A stretch of DNA of 51,065 bases. It comes from Nitrospirae bacterium GWC2_57_13 (lineage in GTDB: Bacteria; Nitrospirota; UBA9217). This document shows positions 9,936 to 49,719 of this stretch, one piece after another. Made by a program: the position numbers and the translations under genes. The notes beneath the pieces were generated by a model, which worked only from the letters and a program-made list of their open reading frames with translations, was not told where the DNA came from and made no database searches. The DNA lies in the NCBI GenBank assembly GCA_001805055.1, contig MHDZ01000039.1, forward strand, positions 18,112 through 69,176. The letters run 5' to 3'. Numbering within the stretch: the first letter of the stretch is position 1; each line of letters opens with the position of its first letter.

Positions 9936-12608
9936 TTATGCCTTCTCGAGCCGCACCGCAGATACCTTGAAGGATGGTATCTTGGCGATGGGGTCGAGTG
10001 TAGTGCTGCTCGTGAGCACGTTGGCCGCCGCTTCCTTGAAGTGGAACGGGATGAAGACCATGCCCTTTGCGGGCCGCTTCGTCACGACCGCCTTTACGGT
10101 TATGGAGCCGCGGCGCGAGCTGACCTTGACCCGGGAGCCGCCCTCGATGGCGAGCGCACCGGCGTCCTCGGGATGGATCTCCACGTAGGCTTCCGGCGAT
10201 ATTGCGTCGATGGGCTTCACCCGCCTCGTCATGCTGCCGGTGTGGTACTGAAAAAGCTGCCGCCCCGTGGTCAGGATGAAGGGATACTCCTGGTCAGGCT
10301 GCTCCGCCGACGGTTTGAACATGACCGTGGTGAACCTTCCCTTGCCGCGCGGGAATCCGCCCTTGAACAAGTATTGCGTGCCCGGATGGTCCGGCGTGGG
10401 ACATGGCCACTGCAGGCCCCCGTCATCGAGCCGGGCATAGCTCATGCCTGCAAGAGCGGGCCAGACCTGGCCGATCTCGCGGAAGATCTCGACCGTGTGC
10501 GGATAGTTCATCTCGTAGCCCATCCGCTTCGAGAGCTCTATGATGATGAGCGAGTCCTTCATGGCGATGCCCGGCGAGTTCACTGCCCTCCTTACGCGCT
10601 GTACGCGACGCTCGGAATTCGTAAAGGTGCCGACCTTCTCGGCGAAGGACGAGCCGGGAAGGACCACATGCGCCAGCTCCGCTGTCTCGGTCATAAAGAT
10701 GTCCTGGACCACCAGGAGTTCCAGCTTCTTGAGCGCCTTGATCGTGTGCGTGCAGTCGGGGTCCGAGACCACGGGGTTTTCGCCCATGATGTACAGGGCC
10801 TTCAAGGACCCTTTTTCCGCCGCAGGGATCATCTCCGTGGCGGTCATGCCTTCCTTCTCCGACAGCTTGACCTTCCAGAGGGCCTCGAATTTCTCCCGGA
10901 TCGCCGCGATCGCGACCCGTTGATAGCCGGGATACATGTTCGGGATGCAGCCCATGTCCGTCGACCCCTGCACATTGTTCTGACCGCGAAGTGGATTCAC
11001 GCCCGCAGCCTCCTTGCCGAGGTTGCCGGTCAAGAGCGCCAGGTTGGCGATGGAAAACACGTTCTCCGTGCCGTGGGCGTGCTGGGTGATCCCCATGGTG
11101 TAATAGATGCCGGCGCGATCCGATCCCGCATACAGGCGCGCGGCCTCGATGATCTTCTCCTTCGGCGCACCGGTGATCTTCGCCGCGTTCTCGGGCGTGT
11201 ATTCTTCGAGGTTCTTCCGGAACTCCTCGTCGAAGCCCTCTGTCATGGACTCGATGAAGTCCTTCTTGAAAAGCCCTTCCTTCAGGATCACGTGCATCAT
11301 CCCGTTCAGGAGCGCCACGTCCGTGCCGGGCCGGTGCTGGATCCAGATATCGGCAAAGCGGACCATCGGCACCCGCCGGGGGTCCGCGACGATGATCTTG
11401 GCGCCTTTCCGCTTCGCCTTGATCATGCGGAGCGCGATGATGGGGTGGCTCTCCTTGGTGTTCGAACCGATGACGAAAAGTACGTCATTGTTCTCGATCT
11501 CCGCGAGCGAGTTCGTCATGGCCCCGGAACCGAACACAGTGGCCAGACCGGCCACGGTCGAACTGTGTCAGAGGCGCGCGCAGTGATCGACGTTGTTCGT
11601 GCCGATCGCCGCGCGCATGAACTTCTGGAAGAGGTAGTTCTCCTCGTTCGAGCACCTGGCGGAGGACAGGCCGCCGATGGCGTCCGGGCCGTGCTTGCTC
11701 TTGATGGCGCCGAGCCGGGTGGCGACGTAGTCGAATGTTTCCTCCCAGGTCGCCTCGGCGAATTTCCCGTCCTTTTTGATGAGCGGTGTCTTGAGCCGGT
11801 CCGGGCTGTTGATGAAGCTGTAGCCGAACCGCCCCTTGACGCAGAGCCAGCCTTCGTTGATCGTGTCCGGCCTCGAGGTCACGCGGACCACTTCGTTCCT
11901 GCTCACATGCAGCGTCAGATTGCATCCGCACCCGCAGTAGGGGCAGATCGTGTCCACTTCCTGCACGTCCTTCTGCCTGCCCTTGCCCAGGGACTGCTTG
12001 CTCATGAGGGCGCCCGTTGGGCAGACGCTGACACACTGGCCGCAGAACTCGCAGTCCAGGTCCTTCTCGAAGGGCGGGGCGATTTTCGCGGTGAACCCCC
12101 GGCTCGTAAAATCAATGGCGCCTACCCCCTGTATGTCATAGCAGGCGCGCACGCATTTACCGCAGAGGATGCACTTCTCCATGTCACGCTCGATAAAGGG
12201 ATTCTGGTCCTTCACGAGACGCTGGCTGCGCTGGCCGTAGAACCGGTTGGTCCGGAGATCGTAAAAATAGGCCAGCTCCTGCAGGTTGCAATCGCCTGCC
12301 TTTTCGCAGACCATGCAGTCGTTCGGATGGTCCGAGAGGATGAGCTCCACGATGGTCCTGCGCCGCCGTTCGATCTCCTCGTTTGTGGACTGCACTCTCA
12401 TGCCTTCCGCCACCGGAGTCGTGCAGGCCGTGACCAGGCGCGGGATCCCCTGCACCTGAACGACGCAGAGCCTGCACCCTCCGAAGGGCTCGAGCCTGGA
12501 ATCGTCGCAGAGGGTGGGGATGAAGATACCGCTCCGCCTCGCCGCCTCAAGGACCGTGATGCCCTCCGGAACCACTATCTCCTGGTCATCGAGTGTGAAT
12601 CTCACCAT
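9936..12608 (-). CDS. fdhA: Formate dehydrogenase catalytic subunit, selenocysteine-containing (copy 1)
   Basis: An 890-residue Mo/W-bis-MGD subunit read through an in-frame UGA at 11570-11568 (Sec347, context CARL-U-HSSTVAG). It interconverts CO2 and formate. Iron-sulphur sites from the N-terminus: [2Fe-2S] C34/C45/C48/C62; NuoG-like cluster H94/C98/C101/C107; two [4Fe-4S] at C146-C156 and C186-C196; cofactor-proximal cluster C222/C225/C229/C256 (CPYCGCGC). The C-terminal part holds the molybdopterin-binding LFQYHTGSMTRR. The N-terminal NuoG-like arm fits an NAD- or ferredoxin-linked soluble enzyme with the NuoF- and NuoE-like partners encoded immediately upstream; it overlaps fdhB1 by 23 nt. 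Splitting at UGA would give two proteins, each missing half the active site, so recoding is strongly supported. Confidence 0.96.
11535..11567 (-). promoter_or_regulatory. SECIS-like hairpin of fdhA copy 1
   Basis: On the minus strand, 13 nt after the UGA, TGGCC-GGTCT-GGCCA (11554-11540) forms a 5-bp stem with apical loop GGTCT. Flanking CACAG/CTGTG (11567-11563 with 11539-11535) can close a lower stem. The GU-containing loop and spacing resemble the E. coli fdhF SECIS read by SelB. Confidence 0.8.
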
Positions 12609-15570: not shown

Positions 15571-18285
15571 CTATCCCTCCTGGGCGAGCCGTTCGACCTT
15601 CACGGCCGTGATCTTGAATTCCGGCGTCTTGGAAAAGGCATCCAGCGCCTCATTGTTCGTCAGGACGTTCACCGCAGCCTCGGCATAGTGCATAGGTATG
15701 AAGATCTCACCGCGCCTGACCCGTTCGGTGATGCGTGCCGTAAGCCTGATGCTCCCCCGGCGCGACGTCACGCGCACCGTCTCATCCTGGCTGATGCGCA
15801 TATGCTCCGCATCTTCGGGATGGATCTCGGCATAGGGCTTGCCGGCATGGGACTCGATCGGGGCCGCCCGCCTCGTCATGGAGCCGAAATGGTACTGAAA
15901 CAGATTTCGCCCTGTCGTAAGCACGAGAGGATACTCCCGATCCGCACGCTCCACGGGCGGCGCCATGGACACGGCAGTGAAGGACACCTTTCCGCGCGGG
16001 AACCCCCCTTTGTAGAGAAACTCAGTGCCGGGGTGGCTCCTCGTCGGGCAGGGCCACTGGATACCCCCCCGCTCAAGCCGTCCATAGGTGATCCCTTCAA
16101 GCGCAGGCCAGAGGCGCCCAAGCTCCTCAAAGATCTCTTCCGGAGATTCGTAACGCATCTCATACCCGAGACGCTTTGAAAGCTCCGCGATGACCCGCCA
16201 ATCCTCCCGCGCCTCGCCAGGGGGTTCCACGGCTTTCCTGACACGCTGGACGCGCCGATCGGTGTTTATGAAGGTCCCGTCCTTCTCGGCAAAGCACGTT
16301 GCAGGAAGCACTACATCGGCCAGCATCCCCGTCTCGGTGAGGAAAATGTCCTGCACCACGAGGAAATCGAGCTTCTGAAATCCTTTTCGCGTGTGCTCCG
16401 TGTTCGGGTCTCCGAGGACGGGGTTCTCGCCCATGACATAGAGCGCTTTGACAGCTCCCTCCAGGGCCTTTCCGGTGATCTCCGTCGCCGCGAGGCCGGG
16501 CCGGACCGAAAGCGGCATGGCCCAGGCCCTCTCGAAGGTTTGCTGCACCAGCGGGATGTCCACGCGCTGGTACCCGGGGTAGACGTTCGGCAGGCAACCG
16601 GCGTCGCAGGCGCCCTGCACGTTGTTCTGGCCCCGGAGCGGATTGATGCCGGTGAAGGGCCTGCCGATGTTCCCGGTGAGCAGCGCCAGGTTTGCCACGG
16701 CGTTCACGTTCGCTGTTCCCTGGGCGTGCTGCGTGATGCCCATGGTGTAATAGATGGCGGCGCGACGCGAGCAGCCGTAAATACGCGCGGCGCGTACGAG
16801 GTCGCCCTTCGGAACGCCGGTGAGCTTCTCGCCGGCTTCCGGCGTGAATGCATCGAGGGACGCCCTCCAGTCATTGAAGCCCGTGGTCTGCTCATTGATG
16901 AACTGTTCGTTGATCAGGCCCTCTTTCAGGATCACATGGGCCATGGTGTTGAGCAGCGCGATGTCCGTGCCAGGCCGCTGCTGCAGCCAGAGCTCCGCGA
17001 ACCTGACGAGCGGGACCCGCCGGGGGTCGGCGATGATGATCTTCGCTCCCTTTCTCCGCGCTTTCAGCATCATGTTCGCGATGACCGGGTGCGCCTCTTT
17101 CGTGTTCGATCCGGTAATGAAGAGCACTTCATTATCCTCAATCTCGCGCAGCGAGTTGGTCATGGCGCCGGAGCCGAATAGGGTGGCCAGACTGGCCACC
17201 GTGGCAGCGTGTCAGAGACGGGCGCAGTGGTCCACGTTGTTCGTTCCGACCGCTGCGCGCATGAATTTTTGGAAGAGGTAGTTGTCTTCAGTGGTGCAGC
17301 GGGCCGAGGAGAGCCCGGCGATGGCGTCAGGGCCGTATTGCTCCTTCACCCTCTTCAGTCGCGAAGCAACTACGCCCAGTGCCTCATCCCACGTTGCCGG
17401 CTCCAGGTCCCCGCCCTTCCTCCGCCGGATGAGCGGGGTCTTCAGTCGATCCGGGCTCGATACAAACTGGTATCCGAAGCGCCCCTTCACGCACAGCAGC
17501 CCGTCGTTCACACCCCGGCCTTCCTTTGCCGTGACACGGACGATCTCGTTCTCCTTCACATGGAGAGAGAGTGTGCATCCCACACCGCAATAGGGGCAGG
17601 TCGATTCGACCTCGCGCATGTTCCAGTACCGTCCCCGCGCGACCCAATTCTTTCCTATGAGAGCGCCGGTCGGGCAGACCATGACGCACTGGCCGCAAAA
17701 TTCGCAATTAAGGTCCTGCTCGAAGGGCGGACAGACCTTGGCCCAGAACCCCTTATAGGCGAAATCGATGGCGCCCACACCCTGCACCTCGTCGCAGATC
17801 TTGACGCACCGGCCGCAGAGAATGCACTTCTCCATGTCCCGATCGATGAACGGATTGCCGTCCTTCTGAGCGTACTGGCGCCGTTCGCCGCGGAACACGG
17901 GATTCCTGATGCTGTACTTGTAGGCCAGCTCCTGGAGCTCGCACTCGCCCGTCTTCTGGCAGACCATGCAGTCGTAGGGGTGGTCGGAAAGGATCAGATC
18001 GATAAGATCTCGCCGCATGTTCTCCACATAGGGAGAATTGGTGATTACCTCCATGCCCCCGGACACGGGCGTCGTACACGCGGTCACGAGCGTGCCGCCC
18101 ACTTCGACGATGCAGACCCTGCACGCCCCCGAACGCGAAACCTTCGGGTGGTAGCAGAGCGCGGGGATCGTAATGCCCACCTGTTTCGCTGCGTCCAGGA
18201 TGGTCGTGCCGGAAGGCACGGAGATCTGCTTGCCGTCGATGACAAGAGATATACTGTTTATGGGTTTTTCCATTGTTTTCGTCAC
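15571..18285 (-). CDS. fdhA: Formate dehydrogenase catalytic subunit, selenocysteine-containing (copy 2)
   Basis: 904 residues including Sec358 encoded by UGA at 17214-17212 (CARL-U-HAATVASLATLFGSG). The domain order is that of copy 1: N-terminal [2Fe-2S] C44/C55/C58/C70, NuoG-type His/Cys cluster (HPYDCMVCQKTGEC), two [4Fe-4S] repeats (CILCGRCVKIC; CEFCGQCVMVC), the cofactor cluster CPYCGVGC and LFQYHFGSMTRR. It starts with GTG in a GTGA overlap with the fdhB2 stop; an ATG four codons later is possible. It is clearly paralogous to copy 1 across its length, yet visibly diverged, so the duplication is not recent. It sits with a NuoF-like partner that has lost its FMN/NADH loop, so its electron acceptor may differ. 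Confidence 0.95.
17182..17200 (-). promoter_or_regulatory. SECIS-like hairpin of fdhA copy 2
   Basis: GGTGGCC and GGCCACC form a perfect 7-bp stem with loop AGTCT (minus strand), beginning 11 nt after the UGA. The 11-nt spacing and U-containing apical loop match what SelB needs in E. coli fdhF. Confidence 0.82.
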
Positions 18286-33556: not shown

Positions 33557-35656
33557 TCACTTCGCCCGCAGCCCGAGCGCCTTCACCTTTTCCGAAAACT
33601 CCACACAGGCCGCAGTGTAAGGATGCCCGCCGTTGTTTGTGACTGCGCTCAGGAGCGCAATGCGCTCCGGCTCCATGCCGAGGGCCTTGATCAGCTCCTG
33701 GCCGCGCTTCACCCGCGCCTTTACCCGCGGCTCGATCTTTTCGTATTTGCAGCTTCCCTCTCCGCAGCGCACCACGGCAACACCGTCCGCGCCGGTCTCA
33801 AAGGCCTTCAGGATGTCGAGCACGTCCACGCGGCTGGTGCAGTGCACCGGGAAGGGCCGGTAGTTGGCCGGAAGGTCGGCTCCGTGCACGCCCAGCCGGT
33901 TCGTGCAGACGAACGCGACGATGAGCGGGTCCGTGCGCTTTGCATCAACGCAGCCCACGGTAGTCACCATGGAGTTCCTGATCTCCTTCACATCATAGCC
34001 CACCATGGAGATGGCTCCGGCGGGGCACTCGGGCGCGCAGAGCCCGCAGGCCTGGCAGTAGTCAGGCCGGATCTCTGACCAGGCCTTCACCACCGGCGCT
34101 CCGTAGGGACAGACGCGCAGACAGGTGAGGCAGGCCATGCACTTGTTCGTGTCCACCACTGCGCCGGCGGCGCATCCGCGGCACCGGGACGCTTCCGCGA
34201 GAGCCTCCTTTTCGGTGTAGCCGCTCTCGAAGTGCTCCATGGTCTTGACGCGCACGGCAGGCGCAAGGTGCTGCACCTTCTGGCGCGGCATTTTGCAGAT
34301 CTTGGCCAGCACCTCCTGCGGCATCTCGTTCAGGCTGTCCTTCTCCTGAATCGGCAGCTTGCCTTCGATGGTCTCGCCCTGCATGAAGAGATGCATGGCC
34401 AGAGCCGCGCGATGGCCGTTCGCCACGGCCGCAATGGCCGAGCCGGGACCGGTCACGACCTCGCCGGCAACAAAAACGTTCTTCGCAGTGCTCTTGTGCG
34501 TTTTGGGGTCCCACTCCACGCGGCCGCGTTCGTCCGCCTTGACGCTGCTGTTCTTGAGCGGCGCAACGTTCGCCATCTGGCCGATAGTGATGATGATGGT
34601 ATCCGCCTCGAGCACCGTTGTCTGGTTCTCATCATAGGTCGGGCTGAACCGCTTGTTCGCGTCGAACACGGACAGGACCTTCTTCACCTCCAGGCCCAGC
34701 ACCTTGTCCTTGTCGCGCTTTACCGATTTCGGTCCCCAGCGGTAGTTGATCTTGACCGCTTCCTCCACGGCCTCGTCCACTTCCCATTTCCAGGCAGGGA
34801 TCTCCTGCTCGTTCTCGAGACAGACCATCTCGACATGATCCACGCCGAGGCGCCGCGCTGTGCGGGCCACGTCCATGGCCACGTTCCCGCCGCCGATGAC
34901 CAGAACCTTTTTCCCGAGCTTTGGCTTGCGGTCAAAGGCAACATCCTCAAGAAAGGGGATGGCGAGCAGCACATTCGGCCCATCCACGCCCGGGATCGGA
35001 AGCGATCGGCTGAGCGACAGACCGATGGCCAGCAGCACGGCATCGTGCTTTTTTGCCAGGTCGTCGAGCTTGGCATCTTTGCCGACCTCGAAGTTCGTCT
35101 TTACCTCGATGCCGCGGCTGACAACGTCGTCAATATCCTCCTTCAGCACCTCTCGCGGAAGCCGGTAGGGAGGGATGGCGGAAGAGAGCATACCGCCGAG
35201 CACAGGATGGCGCTCGTAGAGCGTGACGCTGTAGCCCAGGTCCGCAAGGTCGCGGGCAGCGGCAAGGCCCGAAGGGCCGGACCCGATTATGCCTGCGCTC
35301 TTGCCCTTGTTCTGCGCCACAAGCTTGCGTTTGCTGCGCCGGTATTCCTTCGCCTGTTCGATGGCAAACCGCTTCAGGTGCCTGACCGCCACAGCCTCGT
35401 CGATGCCGCAGCGCCTGCAGGACTGCTCGCAGGGATGGTGGCAGATCATGGAGCATACCGAGGCAATGGGGTTCGGCGCGGTGATCACCTCGAAGGCCTC
35501 GGTGTACCGGCCCTGGGCGATCAGGCCCACGTAGGCCTGCACGTCCGTATGCGCCGGGCATGCCGCGCGGCACGGCGAATAGGGCCTCGTTTCCTTTATC
35601 TCAGCGCCGTAGGGCCGGTAAGGCTCTATCAGCGTGCATGTGTCCTGCTTGGCCAT
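33557..35656 (-). CDS. NfnB/GltD-like flavoprotein fused to an MvhD domain
   Basis: 699 residues from ATG 35656 (AGGAG upstream). N-terminal iron-sulphur region (SPCRAACPAHTDVQAYVGLI; CSMICHHPCEQSCRRCG) as in the GltD/NfnB family; FAD fold (IIGSGPSGLAAARDLADLGY, about residue 125); NAD(P)H fold (VLVIGGGNVAMDVARTARRL, about 260); two [4Fe-4S] motifs (CMACLTCLRVC; CQACGLCAPEC); and from about 565 an MvhD-type [2Fe-2S] domain (VAFVCTNR, VHCTSRVD, VRCGEGSCKYEK). MvhD normally links hydrogenase to heterodisulphide reductase. Here it probably passes electrons from NAD(P)H or ferredoxin to a partner; MetFV, encoded downstream, is the obvious candidate. This coupling is inference from context; the domains are clear. 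Confidence 0.9.
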   Translation of the reverse strand: MAKQDTCTLIEPYRPYGAEIKETRPYSPCRAACPAHTDVQAYVGLIAQGRYTEAFEVITAPNPIASVCSMICHHPCEQSCRRCGIDEAVAVRHLKRFAIEQAKEYRRSKRKLVAQNKGKSAGIIGSGPSGLAAARDLADLGYSVTLYERHPVLGGMLSSAIPPYRLPREVLKEDIDDVVSRGIEVKTNFEVGKDAKLDDLAKKHDAVLLAIGLSLSRSLPIPGVDGPNVLLAIPFLEDVAFDRKPKLGKKVLVIGGGNVAMDVARTARRLGVDHVEMVCLENEQEIPAWKWEVDEAVEEAVKINYRWGPKSVKRDKDKVLGLEVKKVLSVFDANKRFSPTYDENQTTVLEADTIIITIGQMANVAPLKNSSVKADERGRVEWDPKTHKSTAKNVFVAGEVVTGPGSAIAAVANGHRAALAMHLFMQGETIEGKLPIQEKDSLNEMPQEVLAKICKMPRQKVQHLAPAVRVKTMEHFESGYTEKEALAEASRCRGCAAGAVVDTNKCMACLTCLRVCPYGAPVVKAWSEIRPDYCQACGLCAPECPAGAISMVGYDVKEIRNSMVTTVGCVDAKRTDPLIVAFVCTNRLGVHGADLPANYRPFPVHCTSRVDVLDILKAFETGADGVAVVRCGEGSCKYEKIEPRVKARVKRGQELIKALGMEPERIALLSAVTNNGGHPYTAACVEFSEKVKALGLRAK

Positions 35657-35719
35657 CAATCACTCCTGCTTTCGGATTCTGTACTGCATTGCGTCATGAA
35701 ATTTGCGTCAAGCTTAAGC

Positions 35720-39480: not shown

Positions 39481-41289
39481 ATGAGGAGTGTCTTGATAAA
39501 GAAAGAATGGGCATTCATTGCGTTAATGACCGTCGGGGGCCTCTTTGTCGGATTCTCTATCGCGTCCTTCTTCATCTATGTTATTAATCCGGGCCTTCCC
39601 GACCACCTCCTGACCCTGAGTGAAAAACTTGATGCAGATCTCATGTCCGCACGGGTCGGATGGCTGACGGAAAACATCACTCCCCTTATTGCCTGCTCGG
39701 CCGTCCTGGTTGTTCTCGGATTTATCCTTCTGCTCATTAATCTGAACGATCGCATCAGCATAGCGCTGTTCAAGGACAAAACCAGGGCGCTGAAGTTCCT
39801 CGCCATGGTCGCGGTCGAAGCCGTGCTCTTCTACCTGCTTTTTGCGCTTACTATCATTGAACCGATGGACAATCTTCTCAAGCTCTACGGCAGTGGGAAG
39901 ATTGCGACGGGCATTCTCCTCATAAAATTCGCGGCCTTCTTCCTGGTCGGCGGCCTCGCGTGGCTTGTGGCCGGGGAGGCGGGATGGGCGGGCGACTTTT
40001 CTTCCTGGAAGATGCGGCTGGCAGGAAGAGCTAAAGAGCTCACCACCATGTTTCTGCTCGGCGGTATCGCCGGCCTGTCCGGCGGCTTCCTGTACGTAAT
40101 GAACGACTGGATCTTCAGAAAATACTATGTGCTTGTTTCCGAAGTTCTGGACCGGTCGAGCGAGGTCTCCCTCGCGGGCATCAATCTCATAACCTATGAG
40201 CTGATGCTCATGACCAGCCTGTCCATGGGCATTCTGGCCGGACTGGCCGTGGCTCTTTCGCCCGCACAGCGAGACACCAGGATCAGGCTGAGCCGGCTCA
40301 CATTCCCGGGCGCCCTGCTCCTGATCGCCGTTATGATCGTCCTGCCGGCCTATCTCCACGCCGTGGTGAAATATGACCTTGGCAAGAAAAACCTTGCGGA
40401 GGCCGTCGGCATTCAAGGGACGACGGCGCCGAGCAAGACCGTTCTGTTCACCGGGCCCGGTGAAAAGGCGGTCGTGCAGAAATGGAATTTTCGCGCGGCA
40501 TACTATTCCACATCGGCGACCCATTCGATAGCGGTGACGTACCAGAACCTTGAAAAGGTCAGACAATATCTTGATCAGCGCGAAAATCGGTCGATATTTC
40601 AGTACGACGCGGAGGAGGCGCTCTACAGGGGATATGCAACACTCTGGGACACAGAACGGGCGCTGGAGCGGCAGTTCGTCGGCGCGCAGCGCATGCTCTC
40701 GCTCCGCATGATACTGCTGTCACGCATGCCGTCCCTGCCGGTCACATCGAAGAACCTCTCCTATCTCAGGAGTTTCACCGATGAATCGAACTGGTACGCG
40801 GGCAGAGATGCGGCCCTTCAGATGGCGGAAGCGTTCATCCATTTCGGCAGGTTCAAGGAAGCGCGGATGTGGCTCGGAAAGGCGAGGGCGCGGGGCGCGA
40901 AACGGTCAGAAGTGGCGCGCATCAAGATACCGTCTGCGCCGGTCCTCAGGAGCGGCGTTATCCGCGGAAGGATCACGGTGAATGGAACGCCCCTGGCTGG
41001 GGCGCGAGTGGCCCTTTTCACGGACGGATTCGACAAAAAGGAACTGCCGCACTGGGCAGCGGCGAAAAGAATGCTCGATGCCCGCACGCTCGGCCCGGCG
41101 GGGACGTTTACCTTCCGATACCTTGGCGAGGGCGAATATTCCCTTGCGATCATGACTGATAGCAAGACGGTCCCCTTTGACGTCTCTCCGAAGCGCATCA
41201 CCATCTCGGGCCTGCCCCGGCTCATCAGGATCAGCAAAATGGCGCCGACAGCGGATCTCGGCACAGTGGACATACATTTCTCGCGTTGA
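39481..41289 (+). CDS. Seven-helix membrane protein with a C-terminal extracytoplasmic-type beta domain, unknown function
   Basis: 602 residues. Seven hydrophobic helices lie at about 12-35, 68-88, 102-125, 140-165, 188-210, 238-262 and 273-296, then a soluble region. Residues about 370-480 are helical and TPR-like (AALQMAEAFIHFGRFKEARM). Residues about 500-600 resemble a carboxypeptidase-regulatory/Cna-B-type beta sandwich (VIRGRITVNGTPLAGARVAL; GTFTFRYLGEGEYSLAIM). ATG follows GGAGGAGG. I recognise no family as a whole. It is 27 nt upstream of the selenoprotein gene and surely co-transcribed with it, so it may be a membrane partner of that protein. Confidence 0.85.
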   Translation: MRSVLIKKEWAFIALMTVGGLFVGFSIASFFIYVINPGLPDHLLTLSEKLDADLMSARVGWLTENITPLIACSAVLVVLGFILLLINLNDRISIALFKDKTRALKFLAMVAVEAVLFYLLFALTIIEPMDNLLKLYGSGKIATGILLIKFAAFFLVGGLAWLVAGEAGWAGDFSSWKMRLAGRAKELTTMFLLGGIAGLSGGFLYVMNDWIFRKYYVLVSEVLDRSSEVSLAGINLITYELMLMTSLSMGILAGLAVALSPAQRDTRIRLSRLTFPGALLLIAVMIVLPAYLHAVVKYDLGKKNLAEAVGIQGTTAPSKTVLFTGPGEKAVVQKWNFRAAYYSTSATHSIAVTYQNLEKVRQYLDQRENRSIFQYDAEEALYRGYATLWDTERALERQFVGAQRMLSLRMILLSRMPSLPVTSKNLSYLRSFTDESNWYAGRDAALQMAEAFIHFGRFKEARMWLGKARARGAKRSEVARIKIPSAPVLRSGVIRGRITVNGTPLAGARVALFTDGFDKKELPHWAAAKRMLDARTLGPAGTFTFRYLGEGEYSLAIMTDSKTVPFDVSPKRITISGLPRLIRISKMAPTADLGTVDIHFSR

Positions 41290-41316
41290 GAGGGCTATAC
41301 CTCCAGGAAAGGAACC

Positions 41317-42183
41317 ATGGAATTCAGAAGACTGAAGAACCGCCTGATCGCAAAAGTGATCACTCGCTTCCCCTCCCTGGCAAAAGGAGTCATCGAATCC
41401 TACGCCCCCTGGGAGTCCGAGGACGTTCCCTGGACCCCGATGCGAAAACCCCTTGCCGAGGCGACCATCGCCGTTGTCACCACATCGGGCGTGCATCACC
41501 GGGACCAGAAACCCTTCGACATGAAGGACCATGACGGGGACCCCGAGTACCGGGTCATAGATCGTACGCGGCCCCTCGACACCCTGATGATCACGCACGA
41601 TTACTATGACCACAAGGACGCCGACTGCGACATCAATATCGTCTTTCCCGTAGAACGTCTGCGTGAGTTCGAGCGCGAGGGACTCATCGGGCGGCTCGCC
41701 GACCGGCATTACAGCTTTATGGGACATATCACCGGCCGTCATATCCCGACCCTGATCAGCGAAACAGCCCCCCAGGTGGCCGGGATGCTCAGGAAGGACA
41801 AGGTGGACGCCGTGCTGCTCACGCCCGGCTGAGGGATCTGCAACCAGTCCGTGGGACTGGTACAGCGCGAGATCGAGCGGGTGGGGATCCCGACGATCGG
41901 CATATCCATTGTGCGGAACTATTCCGAGAAGGTCAAGCCTCCCCGGACCGTTTTCCTGCGGTGGCCCTTCGGCCATCCTCTCGGCGAGCCCTTCAATGTG
42001 GCGCAGCAGCGCGCGGTGCTGGCCGACGCGCTGGCCGCGCTCTATACGATCGAGACTCCGGGCGCGATCATTGATCTTCCCTACCGGTGGAGGAGAGAGA
42101 ACTACGAGGGAAAGGACATTGACGGCCTGCTCCGCAACGCGGGGCCAAACAGAACGGGGGCCGTTGCCGGCCCCCGCGAATGA
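41317..42183 (+). CDS. GrdB-family selenoprotein (glycine/sarcosine/betaine reductase B-like), Sec172
   Basis: 288 residues read through an in-frame UGA at 41830-41832. The sequence on either side forms one continuous domain (VDAVLLTPG-U-GICNQSVGLVQREIE), giving a UxxC redox motif, Sec172/C175. The family is the B-type selenoprotein of glycine/betaine/proline reductases, but this protein is shorter (true GrdB is about 430 residues), and no grdA, grdC, grdD or grdE genes are nearby, so it is probably not a glycine reductase. A hairpin suitable as SECIS begins 11 nt after UGA. ATG is preceded by GGAAAGGAACC. It is co-transcribed with the membrane protein before it. Reaction unknown; a thiol/selenol redox role is inferred. 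Confidence 0.9.
41844..41860 (+). promoter_or_regulatory. SECIS-like hairpin of the GrdB-family selenoprotein
   Basis: CCAGTCC-GTG-GGACTGG is a perfect 7-bp stem with a GTG loop, starting 11 nt after the UGA. Spacing agrees with the two fdhA hairpins in the window. Confidence 0.8.
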
Positions 42184-42213
42184 ATGGTATTTTCCAATGG
42201 GATCAGGCGCGAT

Positions 42214-43449
42214 CTAGAACCCCACCTGCAGCATGGTGTTGATCGTCGTGAAATCCTTTGACCGAGGGTCGGACTCATCTTCAAAATCCGTCACCGAGTA
42301 CTCAAGCCCGATGCGCAGGTTCTGGCCGTTGATGAGGTAGTTGAGCCCGCCGCCGATCCAGGTGAGCTTCTGACTATACATGCCGGTCATCAGTTCGGCG
42401 TACTCCCACTTCTCGAACCGAACATAGGGCTGGATCTGGCCGGGGCCGATCTTGTTCTGATGCAGGTATCCTGCCTTCGCGTACCATCCTTTTTTCTCGC
42501 CATCTAAACCAACGCTGCCGGGATCGGGGTTGCTTCCCGTATAGGCCCCGTCGAAATCGGTTTTCAGGTACGCACCCGACAACGTGACCGTGCCCACCGA
42601 GCCGATGGGGTACTCAAAGAACAGGTCGGCTGTCCAGGCAGTGTAGTCCTTATCGCCTGTCTGGGCCGCCGTGTCGCTGTACGCTGCGCCGGGCTCGTAC
42701 TGGGCCGCGGCGCCGATGGTCAGGACCATTTTGTTTCCAAGGTAGGTGCCGCTGTAGCCGTAGGTGTCCTCGGGATCGAGCAGGGCCAGATGCACGCGGC
42801 CGCCATAGCGAGGAGAGCTCTTGGGCGCGTCAACGCTCTCCTGGCCGTCCATGGCCGAGAAAATGTATTGGATCTTGGATTTCAGCAGATTGCCCCAGAG
42901 CGCCACGCCTGTATCGCGGCTGCGCTGGTAAGGCGAGTAGATGAAAAGGGACCGGTCCAGGCTCAGGTTGCTGAAGCAACCTTCGAGGATCTCGCGCATA
43001 AAGGGAATCTTCATCTTGCCGGCATTGAACTTGACGGCGTCCGAGAGTTCGGCGATCACGAAGCCTTCGAGCACATTGAACTCGCCTACAGCCTCATCCA
43101 CAACCTCCACGGGAGCGATCTTCCGGTCGCCCGAGTGCTCCAGCATCAGGATGTAGCTCAGCTTGTCCGTGGCCACGCCGCTCACTGTCAGCCGGTTGCG
43201 GCGGAAAAAGAAGTCCGTGGTGGCATCGGTCCCGGCCGGGCCCGAGCCCGTGTCCCGCCATGCGCCGTAGAGCTGGAACTGGTAATTGATCCGCATATAG
43301 GCGGTATCGTCGATCTTGATCGTGGCCCCGCCCGAGGGCAGGCAGGACTGCGCCGCATAGGCGGAACCATTCATAAACACAACCGCACTGAAGGCGCAAA
43401 GCATCGCAAATAAAGCCAACCCCTTCTTCTTCATCCGAATAAACATCAT
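42214..43449 (-). CDS. extI: Outer-membrane porin, ExtI-like
   Basis: 411 residues from ATG 43449 (AAAGGAGG 5 nt upstream). Signal peptide (GLALFAMLCAFSAVVFMNGSAYA), then an all-beta porin of the phosphate-selective O/P type with alternating strands (AYMRINYQFQLYGAW; FFFRRNRLTVSGV) and a C-terminal aromatic residue (TMLQVGF) required for outer-membrane insertion. Followed in the genome by, and co-directional with, an upstream rhodanese lipoprotein; this pair recalls ExtI/ExtH of Geobacter, where ExtI is a porin linked to selenite and tellurite uptake. The symbol is given on that context; the transported solute is inferred. Confidence 0.75.
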   Translation of the reverse strand: MMFIRMKKKGLALFAMLCAFSAVVFMNGSAYAAQSCLPSGGATIKIDDTAYMRINYQFQLYGAWRDTGSGPAGTDATTDFFFRRNRLTVSGVATDKLSYILMLEHSGDRKIAPVEVVDEAVGEFNVLEGFVIAELSDAVKFNAGKMKIPFMREILEGCFSNLSLDRSLFIYSPYQRSRDTGVALWGNLLKSKIQYIFSAMDGQESVDAPKSSPRYGGRVHLALLDPEDTYGYSGTYLGNKMVLTIGAAAQYEPGAAYSDTAAQTGDKDYTAWTADLFFEYPIGSVGTVTLSGAYLKTDFDGAYTGSNPDPGSVGLDGEKKGWYAKAGYLHQNKIGPGQIQPYVRFEKWEYAELMTGMYSQKLTWIGGGLNYLINGQNLRIGLEYSVTDFEDESDPRSKDFTTINTMLQVGF

Positions 43450-43526
43450 GAAAGCCTCCTTTGTATAGTCAGCATAATTATTCTCAACAAATGCACCGCC
43501 TACACCTGACATTTGTAAAATCGTCC

Positions 43527-44894
43527 TTAGCAGCCACCACTGCCACCGCCGCCTCCGGAACCGCCTGAACCCGACTTCATGTATTCCATGTCGTCTCCCT
43601 CAATCTGATTGCCACTCGAGACGAGGGATTCAGGAGCACCTAACAGGGCGGGATCACTGTCACAGCCGGCAGGGGAATAAGTTATCGCGCCACTTGTGGC
43701 CAAGGTGCCTGAGCACTTGCTCCCATCATAGGAAAGCAGTTCGATGGCATAGTCGTAAGTACTGTCATTGTTCCAATCACGGTTGTAAACAATCAGTTCA
43801 CTCCGACTCGCTGTATCCGTCCGCCAGGGAGAATTAGCAGCCAGCGTTCCGCCCATAGATGCGTTTGCGGATAACTGACCCCACTGGGTCCATGATCCGT
43901 CATAGAAAGCTGCAGGCCAACCCAAAATTCCATCAAGAGCGAAAAATACAATGGGGCCGAGAAATCCGACCTTGCAGTAAAGATATGCGGTTTTTGTGCT
44001 GTCGAGGCCTAAAGGAGTGAAGTAGCCCGCAATCGTAGCAGGATCCTTGAAAATGCTTGCCGTGACGTATACATCAGAGTTTGTCATTGCCTTGGCGCCA
44101 TTTATATGGCCTTCAAAAACCGGCTGATCGGAAGCGCCAAAGGTAGACCCCGTAGAGCCAGCGGTGCCGGCATAAGAAGTGGTAGCGCCTCTGACGTCAA
44201 TTGCCAGTGCATTAGACACCTTGCCTTCGGCATAGTCAATCATTTCGCTGAGCGAAATCCTTAGGTCATTGCGCAACGTCCCATTATCTCTCACACTGTA
44301 AGCCGTGGCCACTGCAGGAGGCGGGGCATCGGTTCCATAATCAGTGTCGGGAAGAACCGGGGCGTACAAAGCCCTCCATGTGTTCGCCCCGGTGAGATTT
44401 ATCCCATCCAGAACTTTGAGCCTGTTCTTTGGAAACCCCCAATAGCGAAATGTATAGTAAGCACGTGACATTTGCCAGTAGGCGCTGCCGGTAAAAACTA
44501 AAGTCGTGTTTTTGGTTATCCCCAGTTCTCGTATGATCACATCCATATTCTCGCCTGTCACCATCTCGGTAGAGGAGACCGCAGGCCCTTCAAGTCTGTG
44601 CTGGGACATTCTGGTATAATCGAGAAAACGTGCGCCGGGAATGTGGCCTGTATTGTAATTTGCAGATGTATTCACATCCACAATAATCACCCTGTCAAAT
44701 CCCTCTCCGTTCACCAGCCCTGCGTCCATCCACGCCCTGAGCGTTGCCGGAGAGATCAGGGCTGTTGGCGTCTGGGTCGTTAACGGTTTCTCATACTCAT
44801 CGTCCCCGCAGCTTCCGAGCAGAAGCGGCAAACAGAGAGCGCAAACTGCCAGCCAAGCGGCTGCAAGCCTGGCCAATTTCGTCTTCCTTTCCAT
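43527..44894 (-). CDS. extH: Double-rhodanese lipoprotein, ExtH-like
   Basis: 455 residues from ATG 44894 (GGAGG 8 nt upstream). Lipoprotein signal with lipobox LGSC. Two rhodanese domains follow. In the first (VIIVDVNTSANYNTGHIPGA) the active-site loop reads LVFTGSAYWQ, with no cysteine. The second (NALAIDVRGATTSY) keeps the catalytic cysteine in YLYCKVGFLGP. The protein ends in a Gly/Ser-rich tail, SGSGGSGGGGGSGGC, with a terminal cysteine. Rhodaneses carry sulphur or selenium as a persulphide or selenide. It precedes the porin by 77 nt, so the two form an operon. Role in selenium or sulphur oxyanion handling is inferred from the ExtH/ExtI comparison. Confidence 0.78.
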   Translation of the reverse strand: MERKTKLARLAAAWLAVCALCLPLLLGSCGDDEYEKPLTTQTPTALISPATLRAWMDAGLVNGEGFDRVIIVDVNTSANYNTGHIPGARFLDYTRMSQHRLEGPAVSSTEMVTGENMDVIIRELGITKNTTLVFTGSAYWQMSRAYYTFRYWGFPKNRLKVLDGINLTGANTWRALYAPVLPDTDYGTDAPPPAVATAYSVRDNGTLRNDLRISLSEMIDYAEGKVSNALAIDVRGATTSYAGTAGSTGSTFGASDQPVFEGHINGAKAMTNSDVYVTASIFKDPATIAGYFTPLGLDSTKTAYLYCKVGFLGPIVFFALDGILGWPAAFYDGSWTQWGQLSANASMGGTLAANSPWRTDTASRSELIVYNRDWNNDSTYDYAIELLSYDGSKCSGTLATSGAITYSPAGCDSDPALLGAPESLVSSGNQIEGDDMEYMKSGSGGSGGGGGSGGC

Positions 44895-44987
44895 GTTCTT
44901 GACCTCCATGAATAATGACCATCAGGGCCCTGGTGCCCCTCCGGCAGGAATCCCCGCAGTCCCGCACTACGCGGGACGATCGCGGGG

Positions 44988-45437
44988 CTACTTGCCCATG
45001 GGATAGCCCGCTGCCTTCCAGGCCTTCAGCCCGCCCTGCATGTACACGGCGTTCTTGTACCCCGTCTCGTTCAGGGTCTTGACTGCCAGGGGCGCGCGGG
45101 TGTCGAACATGCAGTACACGATGATCGTTGCGTCCTTGTCCGTGGTGACCTTCTGCATGTGGTGCTCCAGCAGGCGGCCGGAAACGCTGGCGGCCCGCGA
45201 CATGTTCACGGCGCCCTCGATGTGCCCCCCCACGAAGTCTTTCATGTCCTGCGTGTCCAGGATCACGACCTGTTCCTTGCTATCCAGGGCCTTTTTCACC
45301 TCCTGAATAGACATGCTTTTCACGACCTTTCTCGCCTCTTCCAGCATCTGCTCCGTTGTCTTTTCCGCTGCTCCGGCAAGCCCCCCGGCGAACAGACAGA
45401 CTGCAATGACACTACTGATCCAAACCATTCTTCTCAT
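44988..45437 (-). CDS. Exported single-domain rhodanese
   Basis: 149 residues from ATG 45437. Signal peptide (VWISSVIAVCLFAGGLAGAA) then one rhodanese domain with IQEVKKALDSKEQVVILDTQ, FVGGHIEGAVN and an active-site loop IVYCMFDTRAP with the catalytic cysteine. Periplasmic sulphur (or selenium) transferase by family; substrate unknown. It lies 93 nt upstream of extH in the same direction and probably belongs to the same transcript. Confidence 0.88.
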   Translation of the reverse strand: MRRMVWISSVIAVCLFAGGLAGAAEKTTEQMLEEARKVVKSMSIQEVKKALDSKEQVVILDTQDMKDFVGGHIEGAVNMSRAASVSGRLLEHHMQKVTTDKDATIIVYCMFDTRAPLAVKTLNETGYKNAVYMQGGLKAWKAAGYPMGK

Positions 45438-45529: not shown

Positions 45530-46597
45530 TCACATTTCTTGCACAATTTCCCGAGCAATTTCATGGAGCGGAACAACTCTGTCCACAGCCCCTTCTTCAA
45601 CAGCCGATTTCGGCATCCCATAGACGATACAGGTCTCTTCGCTCTCAGCCAGGGTCCTGCCTCCGGCGGCCTTGATGGCCTTCATTCCCCTGGCCCCGTC
45701 GCTCCCCATGCCGGTGAGCAGGACGCCGAGGCTCCGGCGCCCGCAGGCCCGGGCAACAGACTCCATCATCACATCCACCGAGGGCTTATGGAACAGGTCG
45801 GAAGGCTCCCGGTCCAGATGGACCACATACCGGCCGTTCTTTTTCAGCAATTTCAGGTGCTGTCCCGCAGGAGCGACGAGCACCCGGCCAGGTTCGACAC
45901 TGTCGCCCTCAGCGGCTTCCGACACAGGGATTAAACTCAAAGTATTCAGCCGCTCAGCGAGGGTGCGCGTGAACCCCGGCGGCATGTGCTGCACCACGAT
46001 GACAGCGGCCGGGAAATTGCGCGGCAGCCGCGGTATCGTAAGCTGCAGGGCTGTCGGTCCGCCCGTCGATGTTCCGATTGCGACCACGTCGATCTTTGCC
46101 GGCGTTGCGACCCGTGCAGCGGTTTCTCGCGGCGGTATCGGCACCTGCAGGGGGGGCGGGGGCGGCTCAACGGCCAGGGGCCTCAGCTTGCCCATATCGA
46201 CGCCGGCGATGGTCCGCACCTTGGTGACCAGTTCGTTCGCCAGCAGCGTGATGTCCATGGATGATTCGGCGCGCGTCTTGTCCAGAAAATCGACGGCTCC
46301 AAGGTCCAGGGCCTTGAGCGTGACGTCGGCCCCCTCCTGCGTGAGCGACGACAGCATCAGGACCGGCGTGGGGCAGTCGCGCATGATGCGCTCCAGCGCC
46401 GTCAGTCCGTCCATGCCTGCCATGCGCACATCAAGGGTCACGATGTCCGGCTTCAGGCGGCAGACCTTCTCCACCGCTTCGCGACCGTCAGCGGCTGCGT
46501 CCACCACTTCGATATCCGGCTCCGTGGAAAGCATGCGGCGGATGGCCTTGCGCACGAAGGCGGAGTCATCGACTATGAGAACTCGTATTTTTTTCAT
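45530..46597 (-). CDS. cheB: Chemotaxis protein-glutamate methylesterase/deamidase
   Basis: 355 residues from ATG 46597. Receiver domain with D10/D11, phosphoacceptor D56 (IVTLDVRMAGMDG) and K in FLDKTR, a Pro-rich linker, then the methylesterase domain with the catalytic serine in IGTSTGGPTAL, histidine in VVQHMPPGFT and aspartate in LLTGMGSDGARGM. It removes methyl groups from the chemoreceptor and, with two CheR proteins, sets adaptation. Final gene of the MCP-CheR-CheR-CheB run. Confidence 0.96.
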   Translation of the reverse strand: MKKIRVLIVDDSAFVRKAIRRMLSTEPDIEVVDAAADGREAVEKVCRLKPDIVTLDVRMAGMDGLTALERIMRDCPTPVLMLSSLTQEGADVTLKALDLGAVDFLDKTRAESSMDITLLANELVTKVRTIAGVDMGKLRPLAVEPPPPPLQVPIPPRETAARVATPAKIDVVAIGTSTGGPTALQLTIPRLPRNFPAAVIVVQHMPPGFTRTLAERLNTLSLIPVSEAAEGDSVEPGRVLVAPAGQHLKLLKKNGRYVVHLDREPSDLFHKPSVDVMMESVARACGRRSLGVLLTGMGSDGARGMKAIKAAGGRTLAESEETCIVYGMPKSAVEEGAVDRVVPLHEIAREIVQEM

Positions 46598-46648
46598 ACT
46601 TTTTGGACCAAGGCAACCGTGTTGCCGTTCTTTACGCCGTGTTCCTGA

Positions 46649-46687
46649 AAGGGACAGTCCCCCTGGAACCAAAGGGGACTGTCCCTT
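46649..46687. repeat. GGGACAGTCCC dispersed repeat, copy B
   Basis: AAGGGACAGTCCCC - CTGGAACCAAA - GGGGACTGTCCCTT, 9 nt beyond the stop of the HEAT-CheR gene. On the minus strand it matches copy A (36942-36980), including the central TTGGTTCC. Here the arms are true inverted repeats and would form a 13-14 bp stem. Confidence 0.75.
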
Positions 46688-46696
46688 TCTCCAGCC

Positions 46697-48760
46697 TCAC
46701 TGCTTCTGATACACCACTGCCCCCTCCAGGCGCAGCGGCGCGAGGTCCGTATTCACGCGACAGAAGGACTCGGAATGACCCAGGAGCAGCACCCCTCCGG
46801 GCACGAGCATCCGATGAAAATTCCTGGCTGCCCGGTCCATGGCGGCGTCGGAAAAATAGATCAGCACGTTCCTGCACAGGATCACGTGGAAGGCCTCTTC
46901 CATGACGACATCAAGGATATTCCCCTGCTGGAAGCGCACCGTGCTCCGGGTGGCTTCGTTCACTGCGTATCCACCATCGATCCGGGTGAAATATTTCTTG
47001 AGCCGGCCCTGCTCCCCGCCCCGGAAGGAGCGGGTGGAATACCGGCCCTTCTTCCCGGTATCGAGGGCCTCGGGGTCAATGTCCGTGGCAAGGATCTCGA
47101 CGCCCCCCTTTTCTACGATGCCTGACTCATCCAGCAGCATGGCCATGGTATAGGCCTCTTCACCCGTGGAGCATCCTGCCGACAGGATCTTCAGTTTTTT
47201 CGCCTGACCGGCCCCGAGCTTCTTGAGCAGCCCGGGCAGAACGTCGCGGATAACGGCGTTGATCTGCTCCGTCTCCCGGAAGAAATAGGTCTCATTATTG
47301 GTCAATTGGGCCGCGATGCGGTAGAGCGCTTCCGTTCCCTTGGGCCCGTTGACGAGATGCTGATAGTACCGGGTCAGGGACGTAAAGCCGCCGACAGCGG
47401 CCAGGGGGGCGAGACGGTGGTGCAGGACGTTCAGCCGGTCGTCGTCATAGTACAGCCCGAGCTTGTCGGAAATGAACTCCCGCAGCGGGATGACGTCGGC
47501 AAGGTCAAAAGCGAAAGGCGAGCCGGGCGCCGCGGACAGGGCGGCATAGGCGCTCATCGCCTTCTGTTCCGCTTCCCGGGCCGCTCCGGTCATGGTGGAA
47601 AGCGTCTTTGAAAGGGCCTTGCGGGCTACGTCGGTGCTGAACCGCGACAGGGCGAGCGCCGCCTCCATGCGCACCTCTTCCACCGCATCGCCGGCAAAGG
47701 GCAGGATAGCCTTCATGCTCCGCTCGGCGCCGATGCCGGCCATGGCGGCAACAGCGGCCCTGCGGACCAGGGGGTCGGGATGACTGCTGCACGCGGCGAG
47801 TCCTTCGATCGCCGTTTCATCGCCGATCCTGACGATCGCCTCCATAGCCTCCTCACGCATGTCCCGGTCGGCAAGCAGCGCGGTCAGCGCCGGCAGCGAA
47901 GCAGGGACCTTGAAAAACCCGAGCAGCAGGACGGCGTTGCGGCGCACTTTCAGGCTATCCGATGCGACCATGGCCACCAGGGAGTCGATGGCCTTCTGCG
48001 AAAGATCGATGCTGTACGTCTTGTCGCGGTGGCGCGAGACCAGTCCTGAAATTGCCTCGAGCGCCCATTCCCTGAGAGACTGCTCCTCTTCCTGCAGAAA
48101 TATGACGATATGCTTCAGCACCGAGAGATCGCCGAGCTTGCCCAGGGACTGGATGGCCGGAATGTTCGCTCCCGGCGTATCAAGCAGCGCTACGAGCGAC
48201 GGTACGGCGCGTGAATCGCCGATATCGCCCAGGGCCGCCGCAGCGGGGAACTGAAGCCACATGTCCGCCTGGAGCGCTTCGATGAGAGGCTCGACGGCGC
48301 GGGGGTCCCTGATCTTGCCGAGCGCCTCGGCGGCTCCGTGCTTCACGTTCAGGTCGGTGTCCGACAGGGCCTTGATCAGGTCCGGTACGGCGCTGCGGTC
48401 CCGCAGGTCGCCGAGCACCACGGTGACGAACTGCCGAATCTCCTCGTCAGTGTCGCGCAGCAGCGTAAGCAGCGGCGGCAGCGACCTTCCGCCGAGGGCA
48501 ACATAGGTCTCCATGGCCGCGTTCCGCATACTGGCGTTCTCTCCGTCCCGAAGCGCCCGCTCCAGCGCCGGATAGACGTCGGCATCGGGACGGCGGCTGA
48601 AGACCTCGATGGCCCGTTCCCGGCCTTTCCGCCCCTGTTCATAAAAGGCGGTCATGAGGGCCTGCAGGTCCTCGGTGCCTGCACCGGTGGCCTGAGCGCC
48701 TCTGCGCTCCGCGTTCTGCTTGTCAACTTCGGCGGCTGCTGCTCGTTCTGATGGCGACAT
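46697..48760 (-). CDS. HEAT-repeat - CheR methyltransferase fusion
   Basis: 687 residues from ATG 48760 (GAGGGAGC upstream; a GTG two codons earlier overlaps the preceding gene). Residues about 30-410 are 30-residue HEAT/PBS-lyase-type repeats (for example VPDLIKALSDTDLNVKHGAA and AVEPLIEALQADMWLQFPAA). Residues about 420-687 are CheR: N-terminal helical domain, then the SAM-dependent methyltransferase with NETYFFRE, LSAGCSTGEEAYTMAM, DIDPEAL and VILCRNVLIYF. It methylates receptor glutamates; the HEAT array may bind a receptor or adaptor. A stand-alone CheR is encoded directly upstream, so this chemosensory system has two methyltransferases. Confidence 0.92.
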   Translation of the reverse strand: MSPSERAAAAEVDKQNAERRGAQATGAGTEDLQALMTAFYEQGRKGRERAIEVFSRRPDADVYPALERALRDGENASMRNAAMETYVALGGRSLPPLLTLLRDTDEEIRQFVTVVLGDLRDRSAVPDLIKALSDTDLNVKHGAAEALGKIRDPRAVEPLIEALQADMWLQFPAAAALGDIGDSRAVPSLVALLDTPGANIPAIQSLGKLGDLSVLKHIVIFLQEEEQSLREWALEAISGLVSRHRDKTYSIDLSQKAIDSLVAMVASDSLKVRRNAVLLLGFFKVPASLPALTALLADRDMREEAMEAIVRIGDETAIEGLAACSSHPDPLVRRAAVAAMAGIGAERSMKAILPFAGDAVEEVRMEAALALSRFSTDVARKALSKTLSTMTGAAREAEQKAMSAYAALSAAPGSPFAFDLADVIPLREFISDKLGLYYDDDRLNVLHHRLAPLAAVGGFTSLTRYYQHLVNGPKGTEALYRIAAQLTNNETYFFRETEQINAVIRDVLPGLLKKLGAGQAKKLKILSAGCSTGEEAYTMAMLLDESGIVEKGGVEILATDIDPEALDTGKKGRYSTRSFRGGEQGRLKKYFTRIDGGYAVNEATRSTVRFQQGNILDVVMEEAFHVILCRNVLIYFSDAAMDRAARNFHRMLVPGGVLLLGHSESFCRVNTDLAPLRLEGAVVYQKQ

Positions 48761-48762
48761 AA

Positions 48763-49719
48763 TCACGCTCCCTCGGGTTTCTGATAGAAAATGGTGTTGC
48801 TCTTTTCCACAACGGTCAGTGAATGCTCGTAAAGATGCAGGACCTCTCCCTCGCCGGTGAACAGGTACCCCCCGGGCCTGAGACAGTCAGTCAGCGCCGC
48901 GATCAGGCGCTGCTGCGCTGAAAGGTCGAAATAGATCATGACATTACGACAAAAAATGATGTCAAACCGGCCTTTGAAACCGTCCATTGCCGGGAGGTTG
49001 CGAAGGTTCATGGTCTCGAAACGCGTCAGCTCCCGGACCTCTTCGGACAGCATGATCTCCTCCGGCGACAGGGGAATAAAGTATTTCTCAATGAACCGGG
49101 GCGGCGTCTTGCCGAGCCGGAGCGTGCCGTATCTGGCCTGCCGGGCTGTCTCAAGGGCGTCGGGATTGAGATCCGTTCCCGTTATGGTGATGTCCCATGC
49201 CTTCGGATACCTGATGCCGTCCAGGATCTGCATGGCGAGGGAATGGGTCTCCTGGCCTGTTGCGCAGCCCGCAGACAGCACCTCAAGCCGCATGCGGTAC
49301 TTCTCGCCGCGGGCCAGGCCGGTCATGGCCTTTTTCCCCTCGCGGTCCACGATCCCCGGAAGCACGATCTGCGCCAGCGCCTCGAAGTGCTCGGGCATCC
49401 TGAAAAAATAGGTCTCCCGCGTGGTTATCAGGACCAGAAGCTGCTCGAACTCCGCGGTGCTGGACGCAAGAGACTGATAGTAGTCGGCAAGGGAACGATG
49501 CCGACCCTCTTCGGCGCGCCGGGCGATCAAACGCCGGAACTGCGGCTCACGGCTCTCGGGGAACGTGAGGTGACACCGGTCGTACACCAGGTCTTTGAAT
49601 CGACCTATCGTGTCTGCGGTCATCTCCATCCCGTACCTGCCTGTGCCTTCGCGATCGCCGGTCTGGTCTCGGCGGCGCGTGTCGTCTTGATCACTGCCAT
49701 TGTTCGCTGCCTTCTTCAT
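48763..49719 (-). CDS. cheR: Chemotaxis protein methyltransferase CheR
   Basis: 318 residues, or about 288 if the internal ATG (EMTADTIGRFKD) is the start; the N-terminal 30 residues are charged and not part of the fold. CheR N-domain (YDRCHLTFPESREPQFRRLI), ITTRETYFFRMPEHF, SAM site VLSAGCATGQETHSLAM, TDLNPDAL and DIIFCRNVMIYFD. Transfers methyl groups from SAM to receptor glutamates. Lies between the MCP and the HEAT-CheR fusion with a short overlap, so the genes are translated together. Confidence 0.95.
   Translation of the reverse strand: MKKAANNGSDQDDTRRRDQTGDREGTGRYGMEMTADTIGRFKDLVYDRCHLTFPESREPQFRRLIARRAEEGRHRSLADYYQSLASSTAEFEQLLVLITTRETYFFRMPEHFEALAQIVLPGIVDREGKKAMTGLARGEKYRMRLEVLSAGCATGQETHSLAMQILDGIRYPKAWDITITGTDLNPDALETARQARYGTLRLGKTPPRFIEKYFIPLSPEEIMLSEEVRELTRFETMNLRNLPAMDGFKGRFDIIFCRNVMIYFDLSAQQRLIAALTDCLRPGGYLFTGEGEVLHLYEHSLTVVEKSNTIFYQKPEGA

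Follow-up and report, generated by a model that had tools for sequence, protein, structure and literature searches.

At the catalytic residue in the second domain of ExtH, a lipoprotein with two rhodanese domains, Nitrospirota carry cysteine, selenocysteine (TGA) or neither, a variation seen across 27 ExtH proteins that is new. The DNA analysed here (the window, 51,065 nucleotides, G000:C39:18112-69176) encodes ExtH together with a second exported rhodanese and the porin-like ExtI, and we favour, with some reserve, the reading that these three proteins are a cell-envelope uptake module for sulfane sulfur and/or selenium species. How selenite and sulfane sulfur pass the bacterial outer membrane, and how the reactive atom is held safely, is poorly known. 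An ExtH that swaps Cys for Sec and bears a terminal Cys, with its fixed-order link to YeeE/TusA genes, makes a testable pathway out of what was a loose phenotype.

The source genome (G000; 3.32 Mb, 96% complete) encodes Wood-Ljungdahl proteins (formate-THF ligase, CdhC), DsrA and, on contig C33, the selenocysteine elongation factor SelB. Two genes for Sec-containing FdhA are located in the window (9936-12608 and 15571-18285, both minus strand). Both contain the CARLUH motif, and with SelB encoded in the genome the original prediction was correct in deducing a high selenium demand from two Sec formate dehydrogenases. A search of the whole window with Rfam at the gathering threshold gave no match. 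The window also encodes a glutamate-synthase-like flavoprotein fused to a FlpD (hydrogenase delta) domain (33557-35659).

The rhodanese-ExtH-ExtI operon

The rhodanese/porin operon (44988-42214, minus strand) faces the genes for a membrane protein and a selenoprotein (39481-42183, plus strand). All five genes named in the original prediction are present at these positions and their identities were given correctly. The first gene of the trio (44988-45437, minus strand) encodes a single-domain rhodanese (PF00581, 69.6 bits) with the active-site loop YCMFDTRA; the signal peptide MRRMVWISSVIAVCLFAGGLAGAAEK, recognised by eye, agrees with the export that had been proposed for it. The second gene (43527-44909, minus strand) encodes ExtH (NF040901, 290 bits; cut-off 200), which has the lipobox LLGSC (by eye) and a predicted site in the outer membrane or periplasm. 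ExtH aligns as a tandem rhodanese to 1uar, with the Cys in the second domain and a first domain lacking it; alignment of the homologues places the codon of the catalytic Cys, TGC, at 43974-43976 (minus strand). The third gene (42214-43512, minus strand) encodes the outer-membrane porin-like ExtI (NF040900, 448 bits, cut-off 150; PF07396, 44.8 bits), whose start is likely near 43434 (MKKKGLALFAM). The assignment to ExtH and ExtI thus holds, both models being passed over their cut-offs. A PDB sequence search with ExtI returned nothing useful. Directly upstream of the single-domain rhodanese gene are cheB and a gene for a HEAT-repeat/CheR fusion (45530-46672 and 46697-48766).

ExtH was found over cut-off in 26 of 396 Nitrospirota genomes from about ten families. 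The trio is a unit in four genera of the window's family (G000, G003, G004 and G005), with the single-domain rhodanese always in the same place before extH; the flanks in G003 and G005 are unlike those in the window. In these two genomes a HAMP/sensor-like signalling protein (by eye) is encoded directly downstream of extI. One genome, G034, has ExtI and no match to ExtH. Among the matches listed for ExtH on plasmids there were only generic sulfurtransferases with less than 30% identity.

Cysteine and selenocysteine at the ExtH active site

Of the 27 Nitrospirota ExtH proteins surveyed, 20 have Cys as the catalytic residue of the second domain, five have Sec (TGA) and two have lost it. The two losses, to Gly or Asp, are both copies of a single genome (G191; L120 and L121). 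The Sec-type genes (L053, L103, L113, L114, L118) belong to four genomes, one of which (G353) has two copies, and all four encode SelB. All five in-frame TGAs fall exactly on the catalytic codon, for which the chance expectation is about 1e-13. In the ExtH tree Sec occurs in both main clades, and the well-supported branches require at least three changes. The RNA 3′ of the UGAs is more stable than that of synonymous recodings, with a median z of −2.2 compared to −0.7 for the Cys homologues (Mann-Whitney p 0.002). Because the in-frame TGA stands at the rhodanese catalytic codon, the respective ExtH proteins probably contain selenocysteine.

The C-terminal tail of ExtH

ExtH ends in a glycine-rich tail with a terminal Cys, which in the window reads SGSGGSGGGGGSGGC (43530-43574, minus strand; identified by comparison of homologues). 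The last residue is Cys in 14 and Tyr in 10 of the 27 proteins, and the two sort by clade; in the clade to which the window belongs, 14 of 15 members retain the terminal Cys. Since the other clade ends in Tyr, the tail need not carry sulfur. In L040 and L041 a TGA stands behind the terminal Cys; it was considered as a Sec codon and rejected as an ordinary stop: a second stop is directly next to it in L040, the stretch behind it in L041 is unrelated, and relatives have TAA or TAG.

A flexible Gly arm with a Cys at its end is reminiscent of SoxY, which carries its C-terminal Cys on a swinging arm; homology is not claimed. Several extHI operons additionally encode secreted proteins of about 165 amino acids with the exact ends LLPAGVGGC or ECMC/ECLC (L103:3372-3872, L104:6964-7443, L107:6757-7257, L122:11268-11777). 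Neither type had a Pfam or NCBIfam match of note; for the GGC-ending proteins the searches included SoxY and SoxZ. These proteins are possibly a family of periplasmic carriers with a terminal Cys.

YeeE/YedE and TusA genes at other ExtH loci

At 10 of 27 ExtH loci a YeeE/YedE gene precedes extH-extI in the same orientation and in a fixed order, and several of these loci add TusA-like genes, a sensor kinase and a sigma-54-type regulator before extH-extI. The gene order in many of the other ExtH genomes is given here as a composite, as no single locus has every gene together: YeeE/YedE, TusA-like, sensor kinase, sigma-54-type regulator, archaemetzincin-like and small membrane protein are followed by one, two or three secreted proteins with GVGGC or ECMC/ECLC at the C-terminus, then by a second YeeE/YedE, TusA, extH and extI. 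The archaemetzincin-like protein was seen within the operon at L107, L108, L054 and L106 (cluster C6). YeeE/YedE and TusA-type genes beside extHI were found in genomes of the families f19, f20 and f21, and at these loci no DsrE or chp genes were recognised. Within the family of the window itself, the trio has no YeeE/YedE or TusA gene next to it; the YeeE/YedE matches of the source genome are on other contigs.

YeeE/YedE proteins import thiosulfate or sulfane sulfur (PMC11582611). Those of the operons score far under the cut-offs of the selenium models (NF033796, 109 and 92 bits, cut-off 350; TIGR04112, 44 and 25 bits, cut-off 200) and equally far under those of the thiosulfate-specific models; the TusA proteins score under the cut-offs of the YedF models (TIGR03527). 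Some YeeE/YedE matches have an in-frame TGA (G000:C89, G015, G018, G002, G004, G005), and the encoded proteins possibly contain Sec.

The adjoining selenoprotein and membrane protein genes

The selenoprotein gene (41317-42183, plus strand) encodes a PrdB-like protein with a UxxC motif (PF07355, 52 bits; TIGR01918, 73 bits, cut-off 65; TIGR04483 PrdB, 186 bits, cut-off 300). Its in-frame UGA (41830-41832, plus strand; LLTPG-U-GICNQS) is a real selenocysteine codon, because all 15 homologues found in other genomes have TGA at the same codon. These homologues come from Nitrospirota and from MAGs labelled Rokuibacteriota, Proteobacteria, Deltaproteobacteria, Binatia and Acidobacteriota. Ten nucleotides from the UGA is a SECIS-like hairpin with covariation (41843-41861, plus strand), consisting of an 8-bp stem (ACCAGUCC/GGACUGGU) and a GUG loop. 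It has the same distance from the UGA in the homologues, 92% of cells are paired and two of the eight pairs are changed on both sides. Its covariation score exceeds that of all 500 shuffles, an imperfect control since the hairpin region is also protein-coding. Together with SelB in the genome, these data bear out the selenoprotein of the original prediction. The protein is without an evident signal peptide and is therefore probably cytoplasmic, apart from the exported trio.

PrdB, a subunit of D-proline reductase, shares about 40% identity, the UxxC motif and Sec with the selenoprotein, which differs in scoring under the PrdB cut-off and in standing alone: a PrdA-type gene was not found in the 96% complete source genome with PF09338, a model that does detect a true PrdA. 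In marine metagenomes few selenoproteins are more abundant than those of the PrdB type (PMC2398784), and the one in the window is an ordinary orphan PrdB-like selenoprotein. A PDB sequence search gave nothing useful. An AlphaFold2 model (pLDDT 74) had no PDB fold match at E <= 0.001, and therefore no function can be taken from the fold.

Neighbours of the selenoprotein gene differ between clades and none is conserved across them (the neighbour names ettA, ispG, ilvC and arsS were assigned from sequence by eye). In the window's family it is found elsewhere in G006, G007 and G013, in the latter two with an ettA-like gene next to it. In family f3 the genes preceding it are ispG-like or ilvC-like, and in L035 it lies among arsenosugar-type radical SAM genes. 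There (L035:7857-11788) its neighbours are, by eye, an ArsS-like radical SAM gene on one side and two glycosyltransferase-like genes on the other, which may be a clue to the function of the selenoprotein.

The multi-spanning membrane protein (602 amino acids; 39481-41289, plus strand) matches no family above cut-off, and its homologues in G001, G002 and G009 are encoded elsewhere, next to neither a selenoprotein gene nor ext genes. A survey of 148 relatives yielded ten with the selenoprotein and ten with ExtI over cut-off; three belong to both sets. The selenoprotein and ext operons adjoin in two genomes only, that of the window and G004 (UBA9217), and these two share the gene order throughout the 17 kb. 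Because cooC, the MTHF ligase gene, folE, cheB and HEAT-cheR are likewise collinear in G004, the shared adjacency is background synteny. With the operons rarely adjoining, the selenoprotein neighbours differing and the membrane protein occurring alone, the reading of the five genes as a single selenium island is unsupported; conservation of the neighbourhood counts against it, as the two operons occur apart in many genomes. Judged by their settings, the rhodanese/porin operon, the orphan selenoprotein and the membrane protein are three unrelated units with independent histories. Of the original prediction, the gene types, the ExtH/ExtI assignment, the export, the selenoprotein and the selenium demand stand, and the joint function of the five genes does not. 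Genes that are adjacent in one window should not be merged into one system without a test of synteny.

Sulfur, selenium or both

A module as we favour it would import group-16 species: thiosulfate, polysulfide, sulfane sulfur, and/or selenite or selane selenium. ExtI would pass the oxyanion or sulfane species across the outer membrane, and the exported rhodanese and ExtH would hold the S or Se atom as persulfide or selenopersulfide, in ExtH on the catalytic Cys (or Sec) of the second domain. In the window's clade the flexible Gly tail with its terminal Cys may serve as a swinging arm like that of SoxY. The arm would hand the atom to an inner-membrane YeeE/YedE permease, from which it would reach cytoplasmic TusA. 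The module is favoured by the matches to the curated ExtH and ExtI models, the recurrence of the trio, the Sec codons at the catalytic site, the terminal Cys kept in the window's clade, the YeeE/YedE and TusA genes at other loci and the impaired selenite and tellurite reduction of a Geobacter extI deletion (PMC5877670). Against it speak the lack of adjoining YeeE/YedE or TusA genes in the family of the window, the terminal Tyr of the other clade, the two G191 copies without the catalytic Cys and the presence of ExtI without an ExtH match in G034. A more specific version, which we regard as speculative and rather unlikely, is that the rhodanese site (Cys or Sec) charges ExtH's own Gly-rich arm, whose terminal Cys passes the atom to YeeE/YedE-type permeases, the Sec versions being tuned to this route. 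If true, a self-charging arm and a permease would make up a complete route for S or Se from the outer membrane to the cytoplasm.

The strongest competitor is that the trio is a purely sulfur device, which supplies the Dsr pathway with thiosulfate, polysulfide or sulfur and whose selenite/tellurite effect in Geobacter is a side reaction. We give it a considerable chance, though one short of even; it is a narrower form of the favoured uptake module, so that the confidences in the two overlap. DsrA is present in 26 of 30 ExtH-bearing genomes (22 of the 23 good ones), that of the window included, other YeeE-TusA clusters are sulfur clusters (PMC13047784), and the distance of the operon YeeE/YedE and TusA proteins from the selenium and YedF models points the same way. 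The YeeE/YedE proteins are however just as distant from the thiosulfate models, and four genomes encode ExtH as a selenoprotein. SelB is also enriched: it is encoded in 23 of 26 ExtH genomes compared to 20 of 55 relatives without ExtH (Fisher p 1e-5, for two samples drawn differently from related genomes), and by family in 10 of 10 with and 6 of 12 without ExtH (p 0.015). Of the SelB-negative ExtH genomes one has a SelB fragment at a contig edge and one is only 74% complete. ExtH was found almost only in company with SelB, which favours some link to selenium as originally proposed, but this is confounded by DsrA and by the YeeE/TusA genes. SelB and DsrA mark the same anaerobes, and therefore their co-occurrence cannot separate selenium from sulfur.

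A joint role of all five genes in taking up selenite, carrying it and reducing it to supply the formate dehydrogenases is highly improbable. Adjacency in two genera, the Sec formate dehydrogenases in the window and SelB in nearly all ExtH genomes would fit such an island; they are outweighed by the distribution among the 148 relatives, the collinear 17-kb stretch, the membrane protein found without the other genes and the selenoprotein neighbours varying by clade. Another proposal comes from Geobacter, where deletion of extI impairs the reduction of selenite and tellurite (PMC5877670) and the ext genes are clustered with cytochrome genes: ExtH-ExtI might be a redox conduit that reduces selenite or tellurite outside the cell, in detoxification or respiration. 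We consider this unlikely for the trio, which has no adjoining cytochrome gene in the window or in G003-G005; a scan of the ext loci for CxxCH found multihaem genes beside ExtI only in G034, the genome in which no ExtH was found.

Comparison with known systems

The YeeE/YedE and TusA-type genes beside extHI in f19, f20 and f21 resemble YeeE-YeeD (TsuA-TsuB) thiosulfate uptake, SoxT1A and the YTD cluster. The extHI loci differ in adding an outer-membrane porin and a lipoprotein rhodanese and in having no recognised DsrE or chp, and in the window the YeeE/TusA genes do not adjoin the trio. With the selenium transporter candidates YedE (TIGR04112) and YedF (TIGR03527) the operon YeeE/YedE and TusA proteins share the superfamilies, but they fall far under the curated cut-offs. 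Sec at the rhodanese catalytic position is known from the Sec-rhodanese families with UxxG forms (PMC13188914), and U-x-x-G is found in four of the five Sec-type ExtH proteins; ExtH is not named in that review and is set beside the listed families by motif alone.

The closest system is the Geobacter cluster extHIJKLMNOPQS (ExtH GSU2940, ExtI GSU2939). Its ExtI was described with the remark that no outer-membrane porin had earlier been implicated in selenite or tellurite uptake (PMC5877670). The NCBIfam models are passed, the order is extH then extI, and a rhodanese lipoprotein is paired with an outer-membrane porin in both. Unlike in Geobacter, no ExtJ and none of the cytochromes ExtKL/M/N/S were seen in the window and G003-G005, an extra exported single-domain rhodanese is encoded in front of extH in the window, other Nitrospirota have YeeE/YedE, TusA and a two-component system where Geobacter has cytochromes, and in some the active site of ExtH contains Sec. 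The trio in the window is a cytochrome-free variant of the Geobacter ExtH-ExtI pair and most likely serves in the uptake of sulfane sulfur or selenium.
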